Positions 540 to 49,347 of a DNA stretch of 60,495 bases are shown here, one piece after another. The notes under the pieces are model-generated. The model ran no database searches. It was not told the origin of the DNA and saw only the letters and a program-made list of their open reading frames with translations. Each line of letters starts with the position of its first letter. Position 1 is the first letter of the stretch. The stretch covers positions 1 to 60,495 of the IMG/VR virus record IMGVR_UViG_3300020202_000083; one strand, 5' to 3'. The stretch comes from a virus. Position numbers and translations under genes: made by a program.

Positions 540-1665
540 TCATTCGGTCCGTTCCACGTGTCGCCTGTGCTCCTCCCCCAGCCTCACCACCGTCCTCGAG
601 CTGAACCCGACACCGCTCGCAAACGAGCTTCTAAGCGACCCAGACGAGAGCGCGAAGCAAGAGCGGTTCCCGTTGCTGTTGGTCCAGTGCTGCGCCTGTG
701 GCCATGTGCAGCTGCCGGTGGTGGTGAAGCCCGAGAGGTTGTTTCCGCCGAGCTACCCCTACCAAAGCGGGACGAGCGCGGTGTTTAGGGAGCACTTAGC
801 GGAGCTCCACGGTGTCGTACAGCGGCTGCTGAAGCATAGTTACCCCGGTGTCGTGCTCGACGTCGGGTGCAATGACGGCACATTCGCGAGCATGTTCGTG
901 GACAAGGCTTTCGGCGTAGACCCGGCGGCTCCGGAGCGGATGGGTTTCTTCCGCGGCTTCTTTGGTATGGAATGGGCCAAGAAGAATAGCCCGTACGCGC
1001 GCTTCGAAGTGGTCACTGCGCTGAACGTGTTCGCCCACGTCGATGACCTCAACGACTTCGCCGGGGCCGCCTCGTTCGTGCTCGAGCCCGACGGCCTCTT
1101 TCTCATCGAAGTTGGCTACCTCCCCGATGTCATCGCGACCCGGAACTATCCGGTCATCTACCACGAGCACCTGAGCTACCACACGCTGCGCCCGCTCGTT
1201 TCGTTCTTCGAGCGTCACGGCATGACGATGGTGGATGCGCATCGCATCGATAGCCAGGGCGGCTCGGTGCGCATCTTCGTCAGGAACGGTCCGGGCGAGC
1301 AGAGCGACAGGCTTCAGAAGCTGATTGCGGAAGAGCCGGAGACGTTCGAGTTCAAGGTGCTTTCGGAGAAGATGCTGGAGGACCGGGCGACACTAAACGG
1401 TTTGGGCTGGTATTGGGGCTATGGAGCGCCGGCCAAGCTGACAACGCTATTGCATGCCACCGGAGCCGAGAAGCCTGTAGGTGTCCTCGATGACAATCCG
1501 CTCAAGGTCGGCAAGTTCGTGCCCGGTACCGATGTGCCAATCATCCGGGCATCCAATGTCGATTTGCTGAGCGAGAAGAGAGACGCGGTCATCTTCTCCG
1601 CCAACTTCGCCGACGACATCAAGGCGCGGCATCCGGAGTTCAAAGGAAGGTGGGTGGTGTTGTGA
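532..1665 (+). CDS. Sugar-nucleotide C-methyltransferase-like protein
   Basis: 377 residues with the layout of NovU/TylC3-type dTDP-4-keto-deoxysugar C-methyltransferases. An N-terminal zinc-binding segment (CRLC near residue 11, CCACGH near 55) is followed by a SAM-binding core with VLDVGCNDGTF at about residues 107-117 and the segment VGYLPDVI...YHEHLSY typical of the family. The C-terminal third carries GYGAPAKLTTLL and a DDNP segment. The family adds a methyl group to C-3 (or C-5) of a keto sugar. The 4-keto substrate could come from the dehydratase encoded at 3533-4495. Length is somewhat short of the usual roughly 400 residues. Substrate and position of methylation are inferred. Confidence 0.82.
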   Translation: MADHSVRSTCRLCSSPSLTTVLELNPTPLANELLSDPDESAKQERFPLLLVQCCACGHVQLPVVVKPERLFPPSYPYQSGTSAVFREHLAELHGVVQRLLKHSYPGVVLDVGCNDGTFASMFVDKAFGVDPAAPERMGFFRGFFGMEWAKKNSPYARFEVVTALNVFAHVDDLNDFAGAASFVLEPDGLFLIEVGYLPDVIATRNYPVIYHEHLSYHTLRPLVSFFERHGMTMVDAHRIDSQGGSVRIFVRNGPGEQSDRLQKLIAEEPETFEFKVLSEKMLEDRATLNGLGWYWGYGAPAKLTTLLHATGAEKPVGVLDDNPLKVGKFVPGTDVPIIRASNVDLLSEKRDAVIFSANFADDIKARHPEFKGRWVVL

Positions 1666-1901
1666 ATCCGGCGTTCCTCGCGGTCTGGGTCACTGGTGCG
1701 GTCGTGGGGCTCTGTGTGTACGGCTACATCAAGGGCGAGAACGAATACGGCAACGTTTTTGAGCAAGATCGTAGGCTCGCGGTGTCGGCTTCGATATGTG
1801 TATGGCCGGTTACGGTGGCCATTGCGGTTGCTGTAGCTGTGCTGGTGGGGCCGTTCTTCGCTGGCAAGTGGCTACGGAGGCGAAGGGAGTCGCCACGATG
1901 A
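1662..1901 (+). CDS. Small membrane protein, 79 aa, two predicted TM helices
   Basis: Begins at a GTG sharing GTGA with the preceding stop. Two hydrophobic stretches are visible, AFLAVWVTGAVVGLCVYGY near the start and VWPVTVAIAVAVAVLVGPFF near the end, separated by a charged loop and ending in an Arg-rich tail ([11 protein letters not shown]). Topology suggests both ends in the cytoplasm. Its place in the sugar operon would fit a flippase accessory or membrane anchor, but no family similarity was recognised. Confidence 0.6.
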   Translation: MNPAFLAVWVTGAVVGLCVYGYIKGENEYGNVFEQDRRLAVSASICVWPVTVAIAVAVAVLVGPFFAGKWLRRRRESPR

Positions 1902-2146
1902 AACCGCAGCACTTACACGTGCTCCGTGAGCAGTACAACAAGGGGGCGATGCTGTTCGGCAGCGAAGAGCATGAGGCTTGGGTCGAGTCCATCACAGAAG
2001 CGGCGCCGGCTCTGTTCGAGGCAGCAGAGCTATTGATGGATCTCCACGAGGTCGGTGAGCACCCACCTGTCAAGTTCTACCCGGTGGCGCCGAAGTGGCC
2101 ACCGGAGCGCATCGAGCGGCTCGTCCGCTGGCTGAGGGCGCCATGA
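1898..2146 (+). CDS. Hypothetical protein, 82 aa
   Basis: ATG overlaps the previous stop (ATGA), and the gene ends in an ATGA overlap with the oxidoreductase. The product looks like a soluble helical protein ([24 protein letters not shown]...). No known domain was recognised. Confidence 0.6.
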
Positions 2147-2886
2147 ACCTCGGCCTCATCGGCCCCGGCCGCCACGGCAAGCGCTACCTGGAAGAACGCA
2201 ACGGCGGCCGGCACGTCGTCGCTGTCTGCCGGCGCGGTGACTCCCTTGACGATCTGCTAGCCAAGGTGGACGGGGTCATCGTGGCGACGCCTCCCAACAC
2301 GCACCGAGACATCGTTCTGGCGGCGCTCAGGGCGGGCAAGGACGTGCTTTGCGAGAAGCCACTGGCTCTGACCTGGGAAGACTGCAAAGCGATGCTGGAC
2401 GCCGCTGAGGCGGCGGGACGGCGGCTTGTGATCGCGCACCAGCATCTTTGGGCGGATGGGTTTGCCAAGCACCTGGGCGCTCCTGTGAGTCACGTGGGAG
2501 CCGTAAGCGGTGGCGCGTATGGTCACGACTACTCGGCCTGGTTCGACTGGGGCACTCATGATGTGGCAATGGCTATCGCCGCGTTTGGAGTGGCCCCGGT
2601 GCGCGTCTGGATAGCCGAGGAAGGGCGCAGGCTGTATGGCGCACGGCTGCAATTTGAGTGCGGTGGCGCCGACATTCTTACGGGTTTGCTACCGGCGAAA
2701 GTGCGCGCGTTCCAAGCTCAGACTACTCGCGGCGGCTGGTCCTACGACGGCACCTTCGAGCCCGGCCGCGAACCCATGCGGCTGATGGTGGAAGCGTTCG
2801 TCGAGGGTGAGACGGCTTGGCGTTCGAGCATCGACTTCGGGCGTGCGGTGTGTAGGGCGCTGTTTGGCGTTGGAGGCACGGAATGA
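2143..2886 (+). CDS. Gfo/Idh/MocA-type oxidoreductase
   Basis: 247 residues. An N-terminal Rossmann fold ([13 protein letters not shown]) and the family signature [13 protein letters not shown]...[14 protein letters not shown] are clear; the CEKPLA lysine is the usual catalytic/cofactor residue. It is shorter than the usual 330-390 residues, so the C-terminal beta-sheet domain is reduced. These enzymes reduce or oxidise keto groups on sugars with NAD(P). Between a C-methyltransferase-like gene and a 4,6-dehydratase-like gene, reduction of a keto-deoxysugar is a reasonable inference. Confidence 0.82.
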
Positions 2887-3536
2887 AGTCGTGTGAGCAC
2901 TGTGGCAAGGATTTCAAACCAGTGAAGAGATCGAGGCGCTTCTGCTCGAAGTGGTGCTCGACCAAGGCCACAGCTATCGGTCGCGTACTGGTCGGCAAGT
3001 GTCAGCTGTGCGGCACTGCATGCGTCGGCGCGACGGTCGTATTCTGCGCTGCCTGCCGGCACGGAGATGTCTTGCGCGTGCATGAGGAGCGGCGCTTTTG
3101 GTCAAAGGTGAGACGCGGGAACGCTGAAGAATGCTGGGAGTGGGTAGGTGGCAGTTGGAACAAGAACGGTTACGGCCTGTTTCATACCTCAGAACCACGG
3201 AAGATGGTCACGGCTCACAGGTTCTCGTGGAAACTGAGCAATGGCGACGCCGGCGATCGATTGGTCTGCCACCACTGCGACAACCCCAAGTGCGTGAACC
3301 CCGCACACCTGTTTCTCGGCACACAGCAGGACAACATGGCGGACAAGTGCCGCAAGGGCCGTCAGGCGCGCGGTGAGCGCTCCGGCCATGTGCGCCTGAC
3401 GGAAGCGGTGGTCATGGATATTAGAGCGCGTCGCGCTGCAGGCGCTGTAATGCGTGAGATCGCGGAGGCGCTGGGGCTGAGCATTAGCACCGTGACGAAG
3501 GTCGCGAATCGACAGACATGGAGGCACGTAGGATGA
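2883..3536 (+). CDS. HNH endonuclease with zinc-finger and HTH ends
   Basis: 217 residues. The N-terminus has two Cys-rich segments (CEHCGKDF...FCSKWC and CQLCGTAC...FCAAC). The central HNH_3-like nuclease core is marked by [29 protein letters not shown] and DNMADK. The C-terminal part resembles a helix-turn-helix ([25 protein letters not shown]). This is the architecture of free-standing homing-type endonucleases in phages. It sits between two sugar genes with 4-base overlaps on both sides, which suggests insertion into the operon. Confidence 0.82.
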
Positions 3537-36471: not shown

Positions 36472-37356
36472 TCAGCCGCCCCCGTTCGCTCGGTTGGCTG
36501 CGTTGACGCAGGCGACGATGAAGCGGGCATCATCCATCTCGTCGCACTGTGCGACGAACCCGTCGTTCGCGTCGTAGATGTTTGGGGCTAACAGGTCGAC
36601 ATGCCACGGCAACGGGCTCTCCTTGTCAGGCCCCACCCTCTCCTCCTCCGGCGCCGCACCCTTGCCCTGCTGCTGGCGAAGGTGGGCGATAACGTGGCCG
36701 AGCGACTCAGTCAGCGTCTCGTTGTCACGCACGTGGCCTAGCTGCGACGAGAACGCCTGCTCGGCGGCCGCCAGGTAGTCGCGAGAAGCAGCGGACCCGG
36801 CTGGCTGAGCGGAGGTACGAACTCCGCACGACTGCTCGGAGCGCGAATGAGCAGAACCAGCCGGGCCGCTGGCATATCTGTCGAGCGCTCGCGTCACAAC
36901 GCCGCTGATGCGCTCGATGGTAACCGGTACTGGATAGTGTGCGCACAGCCAACCCCACACGTCACGAACGGCGCTAGCGAGGGCAGCCAGCTCCCGCCTC
37001 GCCTGCTCGAGCTCGCCCCGCAACCGCTCCGCCTCCTCGTAATACCGCTTCGCAAGCCCAGCCTCCCTGAGTGCGTCCGTACGCCAGCCGTCCAGGTCGC
37101 GCTTGCACTGCTCGAGCTCGGCGCGGGCGGTGTCAGCATCGGCCTTCGCCTTGCGCTCTTGTTCCTCGTAGCACTCGACGGTGGCAATCGCGCTCCTTGC
37201 CAGGTCTAGCAGCGACAGCCCCGACGGCTTTGCCGAGTAGTGTTGCGCCAGATATTGCCAGCATTCTTCGCGCTCGTTCGCAGCAGCCCGCAGCCTCTCG
37301 CACTCATCCTCCAGGGCGCGGACGGAGTCGGAGAGGCTATTCGTGTTCACTTCCAT
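36472..37356 (-). CDS. Coiled-coil protein, 294 aa
   Basis: Start ATG at 37356. Two coiled-coil segments (SLSDSVRALEDECERLRAAANEREECW; RKAKADADTARAELEQCKRDL, EEAERLRGELEQARRELAAL). The C-terminal segment (PLPWHVDLLAPNIYDANDGFVAQCDEMDDARFIVACVNAANR) matches a small domain found at the end of many phage Ead/Ea22-like proteins. Function unknown. Confidence 0.6.
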   Translation of the reverse strand: MEVNTNSLSDSVRALEDECERLRAAANEREECWQYLAQHYSAKPSGLSLLDLARSAIATVECYEEQERKAKADADTARAELEQCKRDLDGWRTDALREAGLAKRYYEEAERLRGELEQARRELAALASAVRDVWGWLCAHYPVPVTIERISGVVTRALDRYASGPAGSAHSRSEQSCGVRTSAQPAGSAASRDYLAAAEQAFSSQLGHVRDNETLTESLGHVIAHLRQQQGKGAAPEEERVGPDKESPLPWHVDLLAPNIYDANDGFVAQCDEMDDARFIVACVNAANRANGGG

Positions 37357-37826
37357 CGCCAGAAACCCCTTCCGACCAAGCCGAACTGAAAGCTCGTGAG
37401 AACCACGTCTTTGGGAAAAGGGTTCTTCCCGTCGAAGCTCAGCCTCGGCGCCAGATCGAGCACGTAGCCGTAGCGCACGCAGTAGCTCTGGAACCAGTCC
37501 GCGCCCGAGCTCGCCGGCGTTAGCAACAGGATCCGGGCGCCCCGTTGCGATTCCTCGGCGCACTTCTTGGCCCAGGGGGTGACATTGCCGAACGGCGGGT
37601 TGCAAAAGAGCAGCCCGCTGATATCTGCCCAGCTCTGCTTGAGTGAATCTCGCGGCTCGTCGAAGAACGCCCCGGGCGTGATTGCGTTGTTGATATCAGC
37701 AGCCAGGTCGAAGTCAGGCCAGCCGAAACGCTTATCGACCGCAGCCAAGAAATCGCGCGGCGTGCAGTAATCCTGCTTCGACCTGCCGCGGTTCATGGAG
37801 GCGCCCGTTTTGACTAAGTCGTTCAT
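37347..37826 (-). CDS. Phage DNA N6-adenine methyltransferase (Dam-like)
   Basis: 159 residues. SKQDYCTPRDFLAAVDKRFG at the start and the catalytic LLFCNPPFGNVTPWAKK (motif IV NPPF) in the middle are typical of the phage N6A-methyltransferase family. ATG preceded by AAGGAG. The family methylates adenine in phage DNA, often to escape host restriction. Recognition sequence cannot be read from the gene. Confidence 0.88.
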   Translation of the reverse strand: MNDLVKTGASMNRGRSKQDYCTPRDFLAAVDKRFGWPDFDLAADINNAITPGAFFDEPRDSLKQSWADISGLLFCNPPFGNVTPWAKKCAEESQRGARILLLTPASSGADWFQSYCVRYGYVLDLAPRLSFDGKNPFPKDVVLTSFQFGLVGRGFWRWK

Positions 37827-37941: not shown

Positions 37942-38427
37942 TCAGAAGCCTAGTTCGTCATCATCGCCAGGTTCACGCATGCGCTTTTGGTTGCTGTTGC
38001 CTGACCCTGAAGCCTTGCGCTGCCGACGATCGAGCATGGCGCCCTTCATGCGCTCTTCGAGAGAGGCCACCTCATGGCTCTCCATCTTTTCTTTGACGTT
38101 CAGGCCGCCGCCGAGTGAGTTGACCCAGCGCACGCGCGAGTAGGTTTTGCCGTCCTGTCCGGTCTCGTGTTCGACGACGATCACGCACGGGCGGGAGCCG
38201 AGTCCACCGAGCTTGGCAAGGCTCTGCCCGTCCCAACCGGCGTTTTCGAGACTGTCGAGCGTGCGTTCATAGGTAGCGTCTGTGAAGAAGCCATACCAGG
38301 TGATCCGTTGGCCCTTGTCGTCGCCGTCGGCGATCTCGAAAACGATTGCGACTTGTTCCGTTCCCTTCGACGTTTTGCCGAAGGTCCATTCGCGCGCGAG
38401 CGCTTGGTAATGTCCTGGTTTGAGCAT
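37942..38427 (-). CDS. Single-stranded DNA-binding-like protein
   Basis: 161 residues, ATG overlapping the stop of the nuclease/ATPase gene by one base (TGATG). Beta-rich N-terminal 110 residues (AIVFEIADGDDKGQRITWYGFFTD...) fit an OB-fold or DUF669-like domain. The C-terminus is a flexible, basic linker ending in DDDELGF, the acidic-hydrophobic tail by which SSBs recruit partners. Coupling to a Sak4-like ATPase is a common phage recombination pair. Confidence 0.7.
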   Translation of the reverse strand: MLKPGHYQALAREWTFGKTSKGTEQVAIVFEIADGDDKGQRITWYGFFTDATYERTLDSLENAGWDGQSLAKLGGLGSRPCVIVVEHETGQDGKTYSRVRWVNSLGGGLNVKEKMESHEVASLEERMKGAMLDRRQRKASGSGNSNQKRMREPGDDDELGF

Positions 38428-40013
38428 CAAGCAGCCTCACTCTCAGCTAGTTTGGTTTTCAGAAAATCAACGAGTTGACAGAGCTTGCGGGTGTCGTTCC
38501 CGGCCCGTTCGATGGCGGCTTTCGCCCTGTCCTGTAGTTTCGGGTTTGCTCTGTCGATCAGCTGCTTGATCTCGACCATAACTTTCTCGACATCGAGGGC
38601 GCCGGCGCGCGTCGCCTGCTCAAACTCCTCCCAGTCGAGCGCCATCTCGTAAGGCAAGTTGTACTTGTTCTTTGCGTCCCAAGCTGGGCGATGTTCCGTG
38701 TACACCACGCGCGAGCCATCGCCGACGCCACGGACTCGGCCATCTTTCTCGCGGGTGTATATCCTGTAGTTGGCAAACAGCACAGCCTTCGGCCACTCTT
38801 TGATTAGGGCTGCCGCTTTGCCGTGGAGCTTGAGCTCGTAGCGGTCGTAGTCATCACCGACCGGGTTTCGGAAGGTCTTCACCTGACTGTGTGCCAGGAC
38901 AATGACGTGCATTCCCTTCTGCATATGCAGAACATCGAGCTTGTCCGTCAGTCTGCGCCACTCCTCGAGAGCGAGCACATAACCTTTGCCATAGCCGAAA
39001 TCCTCGATGGAGTCCTTCTTGCCCTCGCGACAGACGTAGTCATGGATCAACGGCTCGAGCCAATCGACCGTATCGATGGCAATCGTCTTGAAGTCGTGAT
39101 TGCTGTTGGCGAGCTCGTCTAGTGCTTCCACGCACCCTTCCCAACTGTCTGGTTTCGGGAATCGCGCGACATCGAGCTCTGACGTTCCGTTCTCCGAATC
39201 GAGAAAGACGGGGTTAGGAGCATTGGCGGCGAACGTGCTCTTTCCGATCCCTTCTGGGCCGTAGAGCACTACACGGAGCGGCGTTTGAAGGCGCCCCTTT
39301 CTCACATTCGATAGCTTCATGTTGGACATTCGGTTCTCCTTGCCTTGTTGCAGGTGTGATGTGTAGGCAGAGCACTTCGGGCGCGCACGACAGTAGAATG
39401 CGTCGCAATGCGGACCGGGATTCGCTGGCGTACGCTTGGCCAGTAGGTCTCCCATCAGTACGACCAACCGCGCCCTGTCATTCTCGATGTCGGCAGTCGA
39501 TCGTGCGACAACGTCGACCACGACCTTGCCAGTCTGCTTGTCGACGTAGTGAAACTCTGTGCGCTGCACGCCGGTCACGACGCTGGCGAAACGGAGCTGC
39601 CAGGCTTCGGTCGCGGGCACTCGTTTTTTCCCGGTCTTTAAGTCGATTATTGTCGTCTTGCTGACAATGTCGAGCGTCCCGGCAATGCCACTAACCAGGC
39701 CGTAGCCTCGACCGATGCGCTCGCCAATCTCTCGAGCTGAGCCGTCGGGTAGCAGCTCGTAGGCTACCTCGTGACGACGTGGCGACGGGAGGAGCGGCTT
39801 TCCGTGCCGCAGCCAGCCTTCGTACATAGCACGCACCAGACGTTCGGTTTCTTCGTCCTGTAGCTCAAGGCGGGCGCCGTATCCGTTTTCCACGAGCGAG
39901 TGGAATGCGGTACCAAACTGCGCGGCTGGCCCTGGGCGATCTGGAACGTAGATGTCCGTCCAGTGGAGGCACTGCACAGCTAGATCAAGTTTGGACGCGG
40001 TGAGTTTAGCCAC
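38427..40013 (-). CDS. Fusion: Cas4/RecB-like nuclease plus Sak4-like RecA-fold ATPase
   Basis: 528 residues from GTG 40013, which has GGAGG upstream. Residues 1-220 are a PD-(D/E)XK nuclease: His38, Asp115 in GTLDIV, and Asp124-x-Lys126 in IIDLKTGKK. Cysteines 15, 203, 208 and 214 are placed as in the Fe-S cluster of Cas4/AddB nucleases. Residues 230-528 are a RecA-like ATPase of the Sak4 type with Walker A GPEGIGKS (252-259) and Walker B IAIDT (311-315). Met229 has its own AAGGAG six bases upstream, so a separate 300-residue ATPase may also be made. Followed by an SSB-like gene. Together this is a likely DNA end-processing and strand-annealing module. Confidence 0.8.
   Translation of the reverse strand: MAKLTASKLDLAVQCLHWTDIYVPDRPGPAAQFGTAFHSLVENGYGARLELQDEETERLVRAMYEGWLRHGKPLLPSPRRHEVAYELLPDGSAREIGERIGRGYGLVSGIAGTLDIVSKTTIIDLKTGKKRVPATEAWQLRFASVVTGVQRTEFHYVDKQTGKVVVDVVARSTADIENDRARLVVLMGDLLAKRTPANPGPHCDAFYCRARPKCSAYTSHLQQGKENRMSNMKLSNVRKGRLQTPLRVVLYGPEGIGKSTFAANAPNPVFLDSENGTSELDVARFPKPDSWEGCVEALDELANSNHDFKTIAIDTVDWLEPLIHDYVCREGKKDSIEDFGYGKGYVLALEEWRRLTDKLDVLHMQKGMHVIVLAHSQVKTFRNPVGDDYDRYELKLHGKAAALIKEWPKAVLFANYRIYTREKDGRVRGVGDGSRVVYTEHRPAWDAKNKYNLPYEMALDWEEFEQATRAGALDVEKVMVEIKQLIDRANPKLQDRAKAAIERAGNDTRKLCQLVDFLKTKLAESEAA
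39327..39341 (-). promoter_or_regulatory. Internal ribosome binding site and start codon in the nuclease-ATPase gene
   Basis: On the minus strand AAGGAGAA (about 39341-39334) precedes an in-frame ATG at 39329-39327 with ideal spacing. It lies exactly at the boundary between the nuclease and ATPase domains, so translation may begin a second time here. Confidence 0.6.
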
Positions 40014-40200
40014 GCCCCCGCCCCTCCGGCATCGCCCTGCCCTTGTCGGTGAGTGCATACCCGATCGGCCGATTGCTCTCGGGCAAGTAGAACTCTAGCC
40101 AACGATGCACGTTGACGCGTTCAGCCTCGGACAGGGCCACAGCGAGCACGTGGGATAGTTCCGCGCCCTTACAGGCGATTCCGACGACGCGCTCAGTCAT
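40006..40200 (-). CDS. Hypothetical protein, 64 aa
   Basis: Overlaps the nuclease-ATPase start by 8 bases. Ala/Val-rich N-terminus and a Gly/Arg-rich end. No family recognised. Confidence 0.55.
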   Translation of the reverse strand: MTERVVGIACKGAELSHVLAVALSEAERVNVHRWLEFYLPESNRPIGYALTDKGRAMPEGRGRG

Positions 40201-43714: not shown

Positions 43715-44314
43715 ATGGGCGGTATTTCAGCAGCAGAGATTGAAGGCGCTGCCGATGGGCTGCTTCGCTGGGCCGGAGATCAGGCCCCAGGCATTGTGGC
43801 CTTGGCGGAACGGTTGCTCGGGGCCGGTTGTGTGCGCGCAGTGCACGCTGGGGCGTTGCCCGGAGTGGCCGCTGTGGCCCGCGTGGGAGGCAACTGGCGG
43901 ATCTACATCCGCGCTAGGGCATCTGCGGAACAACAGACCTTCGCAATCGCGCACGAGCTCGCTCACTGGTGCTTAGGGGAAACGGCGACTGAGACCGAAT
44001 GCGATGCATTGGCTGCCGCCCTGGTGATGCCCTGGCGGCCGTACCTCGCCGCGGCGCGTTCTATCGGTCAGTCGTGGTCTGTTCTTGCTCAGCGGTTCGT
44101 CTGTACGGAGAGTGCCGTTGCGCTCCGCTGGGGTGAAGTTGTACATGATCCGCTGGTACTGATAGCGCCACGCGTTGTTCGTGTGCGGGGTGCCCCGTGG
44201 ACATGGCCGCATGATGAGCGCCAGCTACGCGGGTTGGCCAAGGCGAGCCGCGAAAACGTTAGCGTTTCGACCCTTGACGGCGATCACCGACGCGTCCTGC
44301 TCATCGCGGTCTGA
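43715..44314 (+). CDS. immA: ImmA/IrrE-type zinc metallopeptidase
   Basis: 199 residues. FAIAHELAHWCLGE carries the HExxH zinc motif typical of the ImmA/IrrE family, with a downstream segment TETECDALAAALVMPW giving the third metal ligand region. These enzymes cut phage or element repressors to start excision. Convergent with the XRE regulator gene (3-base gap). The neighbouring 259-residue repressor has no self-cleaving domain, which makes it a good candidate substrate. Confidence 0.85.
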   Translation: MGGISAAEIEGAADGLLRWAGDQAPGIVALAERLLGAGCVRAVHAGALPGVAAVARVGGNWRIYIRARASAEQQTFAIAHELAHWCLGETATETECDALAAALVMPWRPYLAAARSIGQSWSVLAQRFVCTESAVALRWGEVVHDPLVLIAPRVVRVRGAPWTWPHDERQLRGLAKASRENVSVSTLDGDHRRVLLIAV

Positions 44315-44661: not shown

Positions 44662-44892
44662 ATGCAGCACAGACCAAAGGGGGACTACTGGGTGGGCTAT
44701 GCTCGGTGTGGCCGTTACTGGTCGGCGGCCATTTATCTTCATGATTGCGGTGAGTACCACCTAGCGCACGTTGCGACGGGGTCGTGGAGGCACGTTCGAA
44801 GGGCGGCTTGTTTCGCCCCCGCCCTTGCCTCGCTTCTTGCCGCCGAGCGTGGCGGGCCACATCTTGACGCTGCTCCGCGCGTCGTCCGCTGA
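44662..44892 (+). CDS. Doubtful small protein, 76 aa
   Basis: ATG 44662 has GGGAG directly upstream and the frame fills the short gap between the XRE and repressor genes, but the last 132 bases overlap the end of the repressor on the other strand. The first 40 residues (HRPKGDYWVGYARCGRYWSAAIYLHDCGEYHLAHVA) look protein-like. It may not be expressed. Confidence 0.3.
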   Translation: MQHRPKGDYWVGYARCGRYWSAAIYLHDCGEYHLAHVATGSWRHVRRAACFAPALASLLAAERGGPHLDAAPRVVR

Positions 44893-45540
44893 GACCCCCT
44901 TCTCGGTGTCCTTTGTGACAACTCGTTCACCTGGAGGGGCTTGGCGGTGCTTCTTAGCGAAGCGCTCTGCCGCGAGCTGATTGTCAAAGAAGATGAACGC
45001 GTCGATTTCGTCGATCTGTTCTGCGTCGATGAAGTCCGACGAGCCGACCAGTTCGTCCACCTTGCGCTTATCGTACCGCTCGTAGAGACGCTCGCGCACC
45101 TTTTTGAGGCTGCCCCGACGGTCAGCTTCACGCTCCGTCTCGTAGACGCGGGTAATGCCGGGCGATGGTGTGTCCGCAGGAGGCGCCACGACCTCCCGCC
45201 GCGGTGGCTTCACTTCCTCTTGTCCAGCATGGGTAACGACCCTCGGTGGCACCGGCACGCTTGGCGACGGCCAGGGACCTCGACCGAAGGCCAGCCATTC
45301 TTCAGAAACACCGAACGCGTTGGCTAACTTCTTGATGACCGGCGGCTTTGCTTCGTGTTGCCTTCCGTTGAAAAGCTTTCCCAGGAGACCGCGCGAGATT
45401 TCGTGCTCCTCCTCGACCCTCGTTGCAGGTGGGAGCTTCCCCGTATCCGGATCAAGCGGAAGGCAGTGGTAGGCATACCAGACGCGAGCGCCCAAGCTCA
45501 TGTCCACATGTTGCCATGTAGCTACCTGAAGAATCGACAT
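44761..45540 (-). CDS. Phage repressor (CI-like), 259 aa
   Basis: Residues about 40-90 hold an HTH_3-like domain (ISRGLLGKLFNGRQHEAKPPVIKKLANAFGVSEEWLAFG). The middle is a Pro-rich linker; the rest is charged and helical (SLKKVRERLYERYDKRKVDELVGSSDF), with a Lys/Arg/Gly-rich end. No peptidase S24 (LexA-type) self-cleavage domain is visible. Start may be ATG 45540 or 45501. It lies divergent from the Cro-like gene, with a shared operator between them, the classic repressor position. Confidence 0.72.
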   Translation of the reverse strand: MSILQVATWQHVDMSLGARVWYAYHCLPLDPDTGKLPPATRVEEEHEISRGLLGKLFNGRQHEAKPPVIKKLANAFGVSEEWLAFGRGPWPSPSVPVPPRVVTHAGQEEVKPPRREVVAPPADTPSPGITRVYETEREADRRGSLKKVRERLYERYDKRKVDELVGSSDFIDAEQIDEIDAFIFFDNQLAAERFAKKHRQAPPGERVVTKDTEKGVSADDARSSVKMWPATLGGKKRGKGGGETSRPSNVPPRPRRNVR

Positions 45541-47322: not shown

Positions 47323-47831
47323 TCCCGAAGGCGCTGCTTATCGCCATCGGCCTATTGCCGGTGTTCCACGAAGATAAGGCCGACGATCGCAAGGGCGCAC
47401 AGCTCGTGACCGTGGCTGCCGCCGTGCACGAAGCAGCGCGCGAGCAGAAGCGCTGGCCGGGCACTCGACGCGAGCTTGAGCTCCTGCTGTTCACCATCGG
47501 ATGGCATGAGTCCGCGTTCTCGCTTCGCATCGGCGAAGGTCGCTGTAAGCCCCACGAGTGTGACCGCGGCAGAGCGGCCGGCCATTGGCAGATGCATCGC
47601 GCAACAAGCTCGAGCGAGGCTGCCTGGGTCGCTTCAAAGACCGACATCCGTATCGCTGCGCGCGAAGCCGCTCGGGCTCTCACACGGGCCAGGTGGGTGT
47701 GCAAGGGCACGTCCGGCGACTGGTTGACGGAGACTCTTAGGGGTTACGCCGGCAGTGGTTGCCGCAAGTCGTTCCGGGGCGAGGCTGCTCGGGTCGCGAC
47801 GTTCCGGCGATTGGAGAGGGGCGGTCAGTGA
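47319..47831 (+). CDS. Lysozyme/lytic transglycosylase-like protein
   Basis: 170 residues. A hydrophobic N-terminus (PKALLIAIGLLPVF) may be a signal or anchor. ELLLFTIGWHESAFSLRIGEG, with Glu64 as likely catalytic acid, followed by DRGRAAGHWQMH, follows the SLT/lysozyme pattern (ES.F...G..G..Q). It would cut peptidoglycan glycan strands. Unusually for a lysis gene it is joined by overlaps to excisionase-like and integrase genes. Confidence 0.65.
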   Translation: MIPKALLIAIGLLPVFHEDKADDRKGAQLVTVAAAVHEAAREQKRWPGTRRELELLLFTIGWHESAFSLRIGEGRCKPHECDRGRAAGHWQMHRATSSSEAAWVASKTDIRIAAREAARALTRARWVCKGTSGDWLTETLRGYAGSGCRKSFRGEAARVATFRRLERGGQ

Positions 47832-48025
47832 CCGAACCGCGTTACCTCAAGCCGGCAGAGGTGGCGGCTCTCCTCAACGTGAGCAAGCCGACGGCCATGA
47901 AGCTCGCCCGCACCGAAGGCTTGCCCATGGTTCAGCTCGGTCCACGGGTGTATCGATTCGATCGCGCGGCCGTAGAGGCATGGGTAGAGAAGCGACGCAC
48001 CGCGCAGCAAAGGAAGGCGGGCTGA
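47828..48025 (+). CDS. Excisionase-like HTH protein, 65 aa
   Basis: GTG start in a GTGA overlap. YLKPAEVAALLNVSKPTAMKLARTEGLPMVQLGPRVYRFDRAAVEAWVEKR fills the protein and is a complete HTH_17/MerR-like winged domain as found in excisionases and AlpA-type regulators. It immediately precedes the integrase, so control of excision is likely. Confidence 0.75.
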   Translation: MTEPRYLKPAEVAALLNVSKPTAMKLARTEGLPMVQLGPRVYRFDRAAVEAWVEKRRTAQQRKAG

Positions 48026-49347
48026 TGGCTGTTGTCGAACGTAGGCGCAAGCGTGGGACCGTTTACTACGTGTGTACGTCCGTCAAGGGCGCGAAGCACT
48101 GGGAAAAGGTCGGCACCAACAAGCGGGAGGCAGAGACACTCGACAGGCAGCGTCGGCGCGAGGTCAAGGAAGGGACGTTCAGACCAGGGCAGGCGACGGC
48201 GCAGATGCTAGTCGAGACGTTCGGCCGTCGCTGGCTCGAGACGCGCAAGAATCGCACGGCACACAACGACGCGCGCTTGCTTGAGATCCATGTTTTCACC
48301 GTCGCCTGGTTCGCCAAGCTTCCCATCGGTGACGTGCGCCCGAAGCACTTTCCGAAGCTGGCCGGTGAGCTGCTTGCTGCTGGCAAGCTCGGCAGCAAGA
48401 GCATCAGTCTTGTGATGGGCCTCGTGCGTGTACTGTTCCGCGATGCAGCGCTCGAGGATGTGATCGAGGCCAATCCCTACGTGATGCCGCGCGGCCTGCT
48501 CAAGCGCTCTGGCAAGAAGCGCGAGCCGTACACAGCCACGGAAGCCGTTGCCCTACTCACGGCTCCCAAAGATGCTCTGTGGCGCGCCTGGAATCACGCG
48601 GCCTTCTACACTGGCCAGCGCTGCGGCGAGCTCTGTGGGCTTCGCTGGGGCGACTGGGACGATATGCCGAAGCCGCTCGGCTCTCTCCTCTGTGAGCGTC
48701 AGTACGACGGCCAGGCTCTGAAGACAGACCGACCGCGCATCGTGCCGGTGCACCCTGAGCTACGGGCGGCTCTGCTCGTTTGGCGCGAACAGTGGGCGGC
48801 AATGTTCTGCCGGGAGCCGGAGCCCAATGATCTGATCTTCCCTGCCCCGGATGGTCAGGCCTTCTCGAAGTCGAGCGTCTACAAGGCGTGGCTTCGCGGC
48901 TGCAAGGCCGCCGAGGTCACCAACCGCTCCGTCCATTCAACGAGACACACCTTCATCACCTTCGCGCGGCGCGGTGGGGCCAACCGCGAGGTGGTCGAAC
49001 TCATCACCCACAACCCAAAGGGGACCATCGTCGACCGGTACACTACCAGGGACTGGGCCGAGCTCTGTGAGGCCGTGCTGGCCGTTCGGTACGTTGACGC
49101 GCCGGTTGACGCGGCGACGAAATCTAGCGGTTTTAAAGGCTCCAGCTCCTGGACTCGAACCTCGTCCACCTCAGAAAACCGGGAGAAAACCTGGAGCGCT
49201 CAGGAAACTGCGCGTAGCGAAAACACCGAGAGATCAGCGGTACGGCGCCACGGTGACGCGCGGGTTGACGCAAGCCAACTTGAGTTAGCCCCTGCTACCT
49301 GGGCGCTCGCCTACGCCGCCAATGACGTGCTCCGGAGGGCGGGGTGA
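48025..49347 (+). CDS. int: Tyrosine recombinase integrase
   Basis: 440 residues, ATG with AGGAAGG upstream. Arm-type and core-binding regions occupy residues 1-165. The catalytic domain shows Arg199 (TGQRCGELCGLRW), His304 and Arg307 (HSTRH), His329 (LITHN) and nucleophile Tyr339 (VDRYT). About 100 extra residues follow Tyr339, including GSSSWTRTSS, which is the translation of a tRNA-like sequence, so the end of the gene probably contains attP. It catalyses integration into and excision from the host chromosome. Confidence 0.93.
   Translation: MAVVERRRKRGTVYYVCTSVKGAKHWEKVGTNKREAETLDRQRRREVKEGTFRPGQATAQMLVETFGRRWLETRKNRTAHNDARLLEIHVFTVAWFAKLPIGDVRPKHFPKLAGELLAAGKLGSKSISLVMGLVRVLFRDAALEDVIEANPYVMPRGLLKRSGKKREPYTATEAVALLTAPKDALWRAWNHAAFYTGQRCGELCGLRWGDWDDMPKPLGSLLCERQYDGQALKTDRPRIVPVHPELRAALLVWREQWAAMFCREPEPNDLIFPAPDGQAFSKSSVYKAWLRGCKAAEVTNRSVHSTRHTFITFARRGGANREVVELITHNPKGTIVDRYTTRDWAELCEAVLAVRYVDAPVDAATKSSGFKGSSSWTRTSSTSENREKTWSAQETARSENTERSAVRRHGDARVDASQLELAPATWALAYAANDVLRRAG
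49132..49180. promoter_or_regulatory. Putative attP core with tRNA 3'-end similarity
   Basis: CTCCTGGACTCGAACC reads on the other strand as GGTTCGAGTCC, the T-loop region of a tRNA, followed by an acceptor-like end. It lies inside the 3' end of int. The translated WTRTS pattern is common at the ends of integrases whose attP overlaps a tRNA gene copy. The predicted host target is a tRNA gene; which one cannot be read from the partial arm. Confidence 0.6.

Follow-up and report, generated by a model that had tools for sequence, protein, structure and literature searches.

One gene of a phage recombination module with two likely starts for a nuclease–Sak4 fusion and a free Sak4 annealase

Organization of the fusion gene

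The window, which is the whole stretch of DNA that we analysed, is a 60,495-base IMG/VR virus record with a GC content of 0.63. Its integrase, terminase, repressor-like and replication genes constitute a temperate phage set. On the minus strand, positions 38427–40013 form a single open frame of 528 aa without interruption. The frame begins with a GTG codon at 40013 that overlaps the 3′ end of a small preceding ORF (40006–40200) by 8 nt, and GGAGG lies 9 nt 5′ of this start. The first-pass annotation of the sequence had proposed that the frame encodes two domains in one chain, and both halves were indeed matched by Pfam and by PHROGs, the latter as exonuclease phrog_69 and Sak4 phrog_124 (E 1e-52). 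Together with four more full-length fusions described below, these matches identify the gene as a fusion of a RecB-type PD-(D/E)XK nuclease and a Sak4 ATPase.

The nuclease domain covers aa 1–216 (39366–40013, minus strand, as for all features of the module). An AAGGAG motif within K-E codons (39336–39341) and an in-frame ATG encoding M229 (39327–39329) lie between the two domains, and M232 provides a second in-frame ATG. Initiation at M229 would yield a predicted free Sak4 of 300 aa (38427–39329) containing the Walker A motif GPEGIGKS (aa 252–259, 39237–39260). The ATG of a downstream SSB-like gene (DUF669-like, 37942–38427, 161 aa) overlaps the stop codon of the fusion gene (TGATG). The full-length fusion model had a pTM of 0.57 and left the placement of the two domains relative to each other unpredicted. 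We found no nuclease–Sak4 single chain among solved structures.

The nuclease domain

PDDEXK_1 (PF12705) matched aa 28–214 with an E value of 2.6e-10 and 41.1 bits against a cutoff of 22. Alignment of 18 related nucleases revealed invariant columns at S7, C15, G34, D115, D124, K126, G128, C203, C208 and C214, which correspond to a PD-(D/E)XK site plus four cysteines. The catalytic D115...D124-x-K126 motif (aa 115–126) is encoded at 39636–39671, the first cysteine of a probable Fe-S cluster at 39969–39971 and the C-terminal triad at 39372–39407. This triad is spaced C-x4-C-x5-C in the fusion clade, as opposed to C-x2-C-x5-C in most separate relatives. Because the window nuclease departs from the typical spacing, which is not essential for the fold, we describe it as working like an Fe-S nuclease and not as a proven member of that class.

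A model of the nuclease alone (aa 1–227) had a pLDDT of 91.7. Its closest folds were AdnA (9np6; Z 14.3, rmsd 3.1 over 194 residues) and AddB (4cei; Z 11.7), followed by Cas4-like ACE1 (Z 11.6), Cas4 SSO0001 (Z 11.3), RecE (10.6) and lambda exonuclease (8.7). A PDB sequence search with the nuclease as query returned nothing usable. The nuclease domains of AddB and AdnA carry Fe-S clusters. The window nuclease shares with AddB, AdnA and Cas4 the fold (Z 14.3–11.3), the D...DxK site and the four cysteines, but differs from them in its C-x4-C-x5-C spacing and in being without a helicase domain or CRISPR context. It is thus probably of the Fe-S type (AddB/AdnA/Cas4-like), with the cluster itself predicted from the cysteines. 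Its nuclease activity and polarity are likewise predictions.

The earlier description of this domain as a Cas4-like Fe-S nuclease therefore stood as regards the PD-(D/E)XK site, the four cysteines and the AdnA/AddB fold, but the Cas4 label was too specific. The NCBI Cas4 model (TIGR00372) did not match the window protein, and its score for the relative L011 was only 17.1 bits, where the cutoff is 65. On this model a Cas4/CRISPR function was rejected, and the only PADLOC matches were weak ones to the DruK/Cas4 superfamily.

The Sak4 half and the SSB-like protein

AAA_24 (PF13479) matched aa 245–450 with an E value of 3.7e-57 and 193.8 bits against a cutoff of 27. The best match of the RecA-core fold was 8rc5, Sak4 of staphylococcal phage 52A (Z 21.8, rmsd 2.7 over 203 residues). 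Together with phrog_124, these results confirmed the initial assignment of this half as Sak4. Sak4 of phage 52A assembles into filaments (PMC11846896). Sak4 of HK620 is an ATP-dependent single-strand annealase that is stimulated by the neighbouring SSB via the last six SSB residues, and ssb adjoins up to 80% of sak4 genes (PMC5928155).

An SSB gene, the usual but not universal neighbour of Sak4, is present in the window. The predicted SSB-like partner with a DDDELGF tail was likewise upheld, in that its product matched phrog_378 (E 3e-4) and the ORF ends with this acidic motif (37945–37965). The DUF669 match of the window protein was weak and below the cutoff (E 0.0026); the corresponding protein of the related contig L234 matched above it. 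HK620 resembles the window in having a Sak4-type ATPase adjoining a DUF669 SSB with an acidic tail. Unlike the window, HK620 has no fused nuclease, and it has a homologue of Abc2, a type of protein that diverts host RecBCD.

Related fusions and integrity of the frame

Scans of IMG/VR identified four more in-frame fusions, L010 (3300045977_000165), L011 (3300037484_000944), L234 (3300046732_000050) and L262 (3300006847_000024, 1651–3393). Single-protein scans of viral contigs gave no fusion; alignment-based searches found them. Compared with the window, their nucleases are 27–49% identical and their Sak4 halves 43–62%. A stop or frameshift near 39330–39360 would split the window gene, but these four independent contigs contain the same in-frame fusion. 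Sequencing error can be excluded because there are five in-frame fusions and because GGAG precedes the junction ATG in all six members of the clade, the sixth being L173 (3300009009_000033). In this contig (3600–5202) a nuclease of the same subfamily and Sak4 are encoded in two frames, the genes overlapping by about 22 nt, out of frame, at the fusion point. A close relative split at the same place is what one would expect if an assembly had missed a stop or frameshift and joined two genes. Given the four independent contigs, that explanation is refuted for the family and has a negligible probability for the window. The L173 Sak4 gene in turn overlaps the start of its SSB gene.

As L173 illustrates, the fusion can be dispensed with. 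The trees favour neither a loss of the fusion in L173 nor its absence there from the outset. The fact that L173 retains two separate proteins, together with the separate genes of most relatives, fits an explanation in which a nuclease and a free Sak4 are the useful products, and the long protein either does no harm, having arisen through loss of a stop codon, or is cleaved by a protease. However, the five fusions keep the frame through linkers of 14, 14, 20, 26 and 27 aa between the last cysteine and the junction methionine. A second family, described below, is single-framed in 84 of 84 sequences, and fusion arose twice. We consider incidental read-through of this kind improbable.

The L262 nuclease belongs to the window clade (about 40% identical), and its Sak4 half groups with another set of separate Sak4 genes. 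L262 could possibly have exchanged its ATPase cassette, complete with a ribosome site, or could represent a third fusion.

An SSB-like gene lies 3′ of the module in all six contigs (window, L010, L011, L234, L262 and L173). The SSB tails vary inside the clade (DDDELGF in the window, and DDDIPL, DGDDLPF, LDEPHF and GDGPPV), and three of the six are missing a terminal aromatic residue.

No fusion of the window type was found among 377 genomes of Myxococcota, the phylum of L092, among 299 of the phylum of L106 and 199 of that of L094, or in the phage and plasmid collections that we searched. Two kinds of candidate were rejected. A Rhodoplanes plasmid (L004:4869–6164) encodes VRR-NUC and Sak4 as separate genes divided by a stop codon; since the two lie in one frame, a tblastn match runs across both genes and imitates a fusion. 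In L097, L109, L015, L162 and L346, the long N-terminal open frames 5′ of Sak4 appear to be out-of-frame reading of high-GC DNA. Modules with separate genes (L182, L124, L002 and Akkermansia phage Chantilly) contain the same RecB-like nuclease, Sak4 and SSB parts in adjoining genes, but there, in contrast to the window, the nuclease and Sak4 are two unfused genes in either order.

The internal start in the window clade

The first-pass annotation had also noted a ribosome site and ATG between the domains. This arrangement was confirmed as AAGGAG (39341–39336), six nucleotides and an in-frame ATG (39329–39327), in the junction AAGGAGAACCGAATG, and it was kept across the clade. The corresponding junctions are CGGAGAACACCATG in L234, AAGGAGAAGAGACCCATG in L010, AAGGAGAACACAACCATG in L011, CAGGAGAACAAGCCAATG in L262 and AAGGAGCGAACGAAGACGATG in L173. 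M229 and M232 were invariant in the four fusions that were aligned and L262 carries both (MARM), such that a second in-frame methionine occurs three codons past the junction methionine in all five fusions.

AAGGAG followed by ATG at a distance of 4–10 nt occurs at 9 sites in the 60 kb window, three others of which precede long ORFs (16189, 28954 and 37826). In close relatives, a stand-alone Sak4 gene often starts immediately ahead of the corresponding domain and has its own Shine-Dalgarno (SD) sequence, indicating that the fusion keeps an ancestral start. Synonymous resampling at the K-E codons produced an SD sequence in about half of the trials for three members and in 30% for L234. Thus the SD sequence of the six members of the window clade could in part be a by-product of the K-E codons, and by itself it is suggestive rather than proof.

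A second fusion family

The first-pass annotation held that the exonuclease and Sak4 are separate in other phages. This was wrong: most relatives are indeed separate, but PHROG 8097 is a widespread fusion, and the search for homologous fusions thus yielded this family in addition to the four window-type contigs. PHROG 8097 combines PDDEXK_1 and AAA_24 in a single chain and is found in phages of low-GC Bacillota. Examples are Staphylococcus phage PI-Sepi-HH2 (QPB07656.1) and Paenibacillus phage Wanderer, whose gp51 (YP_010080272.1; L348:2456–4264) is a full nuclease–Sak4 fusion with an SSB gene next to it. Wanderer gp51 is annotated only as an exonuclease, and its internal ATG, probably a second start, is missing from the annotation. 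An IMG/VR scan identified at least 80 loci among 263 relatives.

The window gene does not belong to this family. The phrog_8097 match to the window protein was weak and confined to positions 231–392, spanning the junction; there was neither a full-length match nor a common fusion origin. A single clade for both fusion families was rejected in the Sak4 tree, in which long branches are present (delta lnL 78, p-AU 3.65e-6), indicating that nuclease–Sak4 fusions arose at least twice. The two families have in common the nuclease–Sak4 chain and a junction ATG with an SD sequence, with SSB as the next gene in Wanderer. They differ in origin and in the linker, which in most members of PHROG 8097 has about 7 residues from the last cysteine to the junction methionine. 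Past this methionine the sequence MLLPKNERR resembles the N termini of separate Sak4 proteins from lactobacillus and streptococcus phages (MISLPK..., MSFTLPEN...).

The fusion was in a single frame in 84 of 84 sequences examined, and the junction ATG was present in every one of them as the sole fully invariant methionine column of the protein. We then compared 48 PHROG 8097 genes that were less than 85% identical, scoring SD matches of 5 nt or more that lay at start-codon spacing. These are related sequences and not independent events, with synonymous sites that are well diverged at these identities. An SD sequence was found at the junction ATG in 32 of the 48 genes (67%), as opposed to 4.2% of 476 other internal methionine codons in the same proteins. 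As a null, the eight residues 5′ of the junction were resampled synonymously for 500 rounds using the codon usage of each gene. This gave an SD sequence in a mean of 7.0 of 48 genes (15%) with a maximum of 14, and no round reached 32. The rate at the gene's own start was 67%, equal to that at the junction, and the rate at the downstream gene was lower (42% of 38 genes, with crude start calls). In part of the family the SD matches are weak or have a longer spacing.

These results bear on the possibility that only the fusion is made, with the junction SD sequence and ATG being a relic of a separate gene or a means of slowing ribosomes between domains. With no stop codon between the domains, any ribosome that translates the nuclease must yield the fusion, and the linker K-E codons account for part of the SD signal in the window clade. 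However, a relic should decay, yet the PHROG 8097 ATG is invariant and its SD sequence far exceeds synonymous resampling; the window clade also keeps the ATG despite proteins that are only 27–62% identical. A pausing signal, moreover, requires no invariant ATG at start-codon spacing. We therefore regard production of the fusion alone as unlikely. Since two fusion families of independent origin both keep an internal start, the idea of two products is much stronger than it could be from the window sequence by itself.

Proposed function of the two products

From these comparisons, we consider it quite likely that a single gene with two starts encodes both the fusion and a free Sak4 within a phage recombination module. 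Initiation at the GTG at 40013 would produce a 58-kDa nuclease–Sak4 fusion, and initiation at the retained AAGGAG-N6-ATG at 39329 would produce a free 34-kDa Sak4. The nuclease domain, with a two-metal PD-(D/E)XK site and stabilisation by an Fe-S cluster, would bare single-stranded DNA at a break. SSB would then coat the bared strand while the tethered Sak4 is brought to the new strand. Free Sak4 would lengthen the filament, SSB being displaced with the help of its tail, and homologous strands would be annealed. By diluting the bulky nuclease, free Sak4 would allow an ATP-dependent filament without a nuclease on every protomer. Synthesis of both proteins, the handover and this dosage logic are presumed. 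More generally, there is a reasonable, somewhat better than even, chance that two or more Fe-S nuclease–Sak4 fusions keep the annealase start so that two ribosome sites set the ratio, with the long form loading or seeding filaments of the short form.

Lambda Exo/Beta and RecE/RecT are exonuclease–annealase partners that cooperate as separate proteins. If correct, a covalent nuclease–annealase and a free annealase from one gene would provide a direct handle on the handover from resection to annealing, and a nuclease–Sak4 fusion could serve as a compact recombineering tool. Members of PHROG 8097 carry no annotation beyond exonuclease or NTP-binding protein, and the PHROG itself is labelled only 'exonuclease', so that database names and starts miss one of two likely products. 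The parts, the module and a fusion as a PHROG entry were known already; in the open-access literature we found no description of a nuclease–Sak4 fusion or two-start gene, and the conserved two-start design is apparently undescribed. Genes in which an internal in-frame start gives rise to a portion of the larger product are known, an example being Cas11b, which is translated from within cas8b of an archaeal type I-B CRISPR system (PMC11899642). As in the window, one gene gives a long protein and a part of it via an internal start. The proteins and their function are unrelated to those of the window, and in the Cas11b case the internal start was shown experimentally.

Genes around the module

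Downstream of the SSB gene, a Dam-type adenine methyltransferase gene (37347–37826, minus strand) has its own AAGGAG site. In L173, a gene resembling a Dam-type methyltransferase is located upstream of the module. Elsewhere in the window, an ImmA/IrrE-like metalloprotease gene lies near a repressor-like gene on the opposite strand (43715–44314, plus; 44761–45540, minus), and this pair is probably a lysogeny switch. The integrase gene is at 47755–49347.
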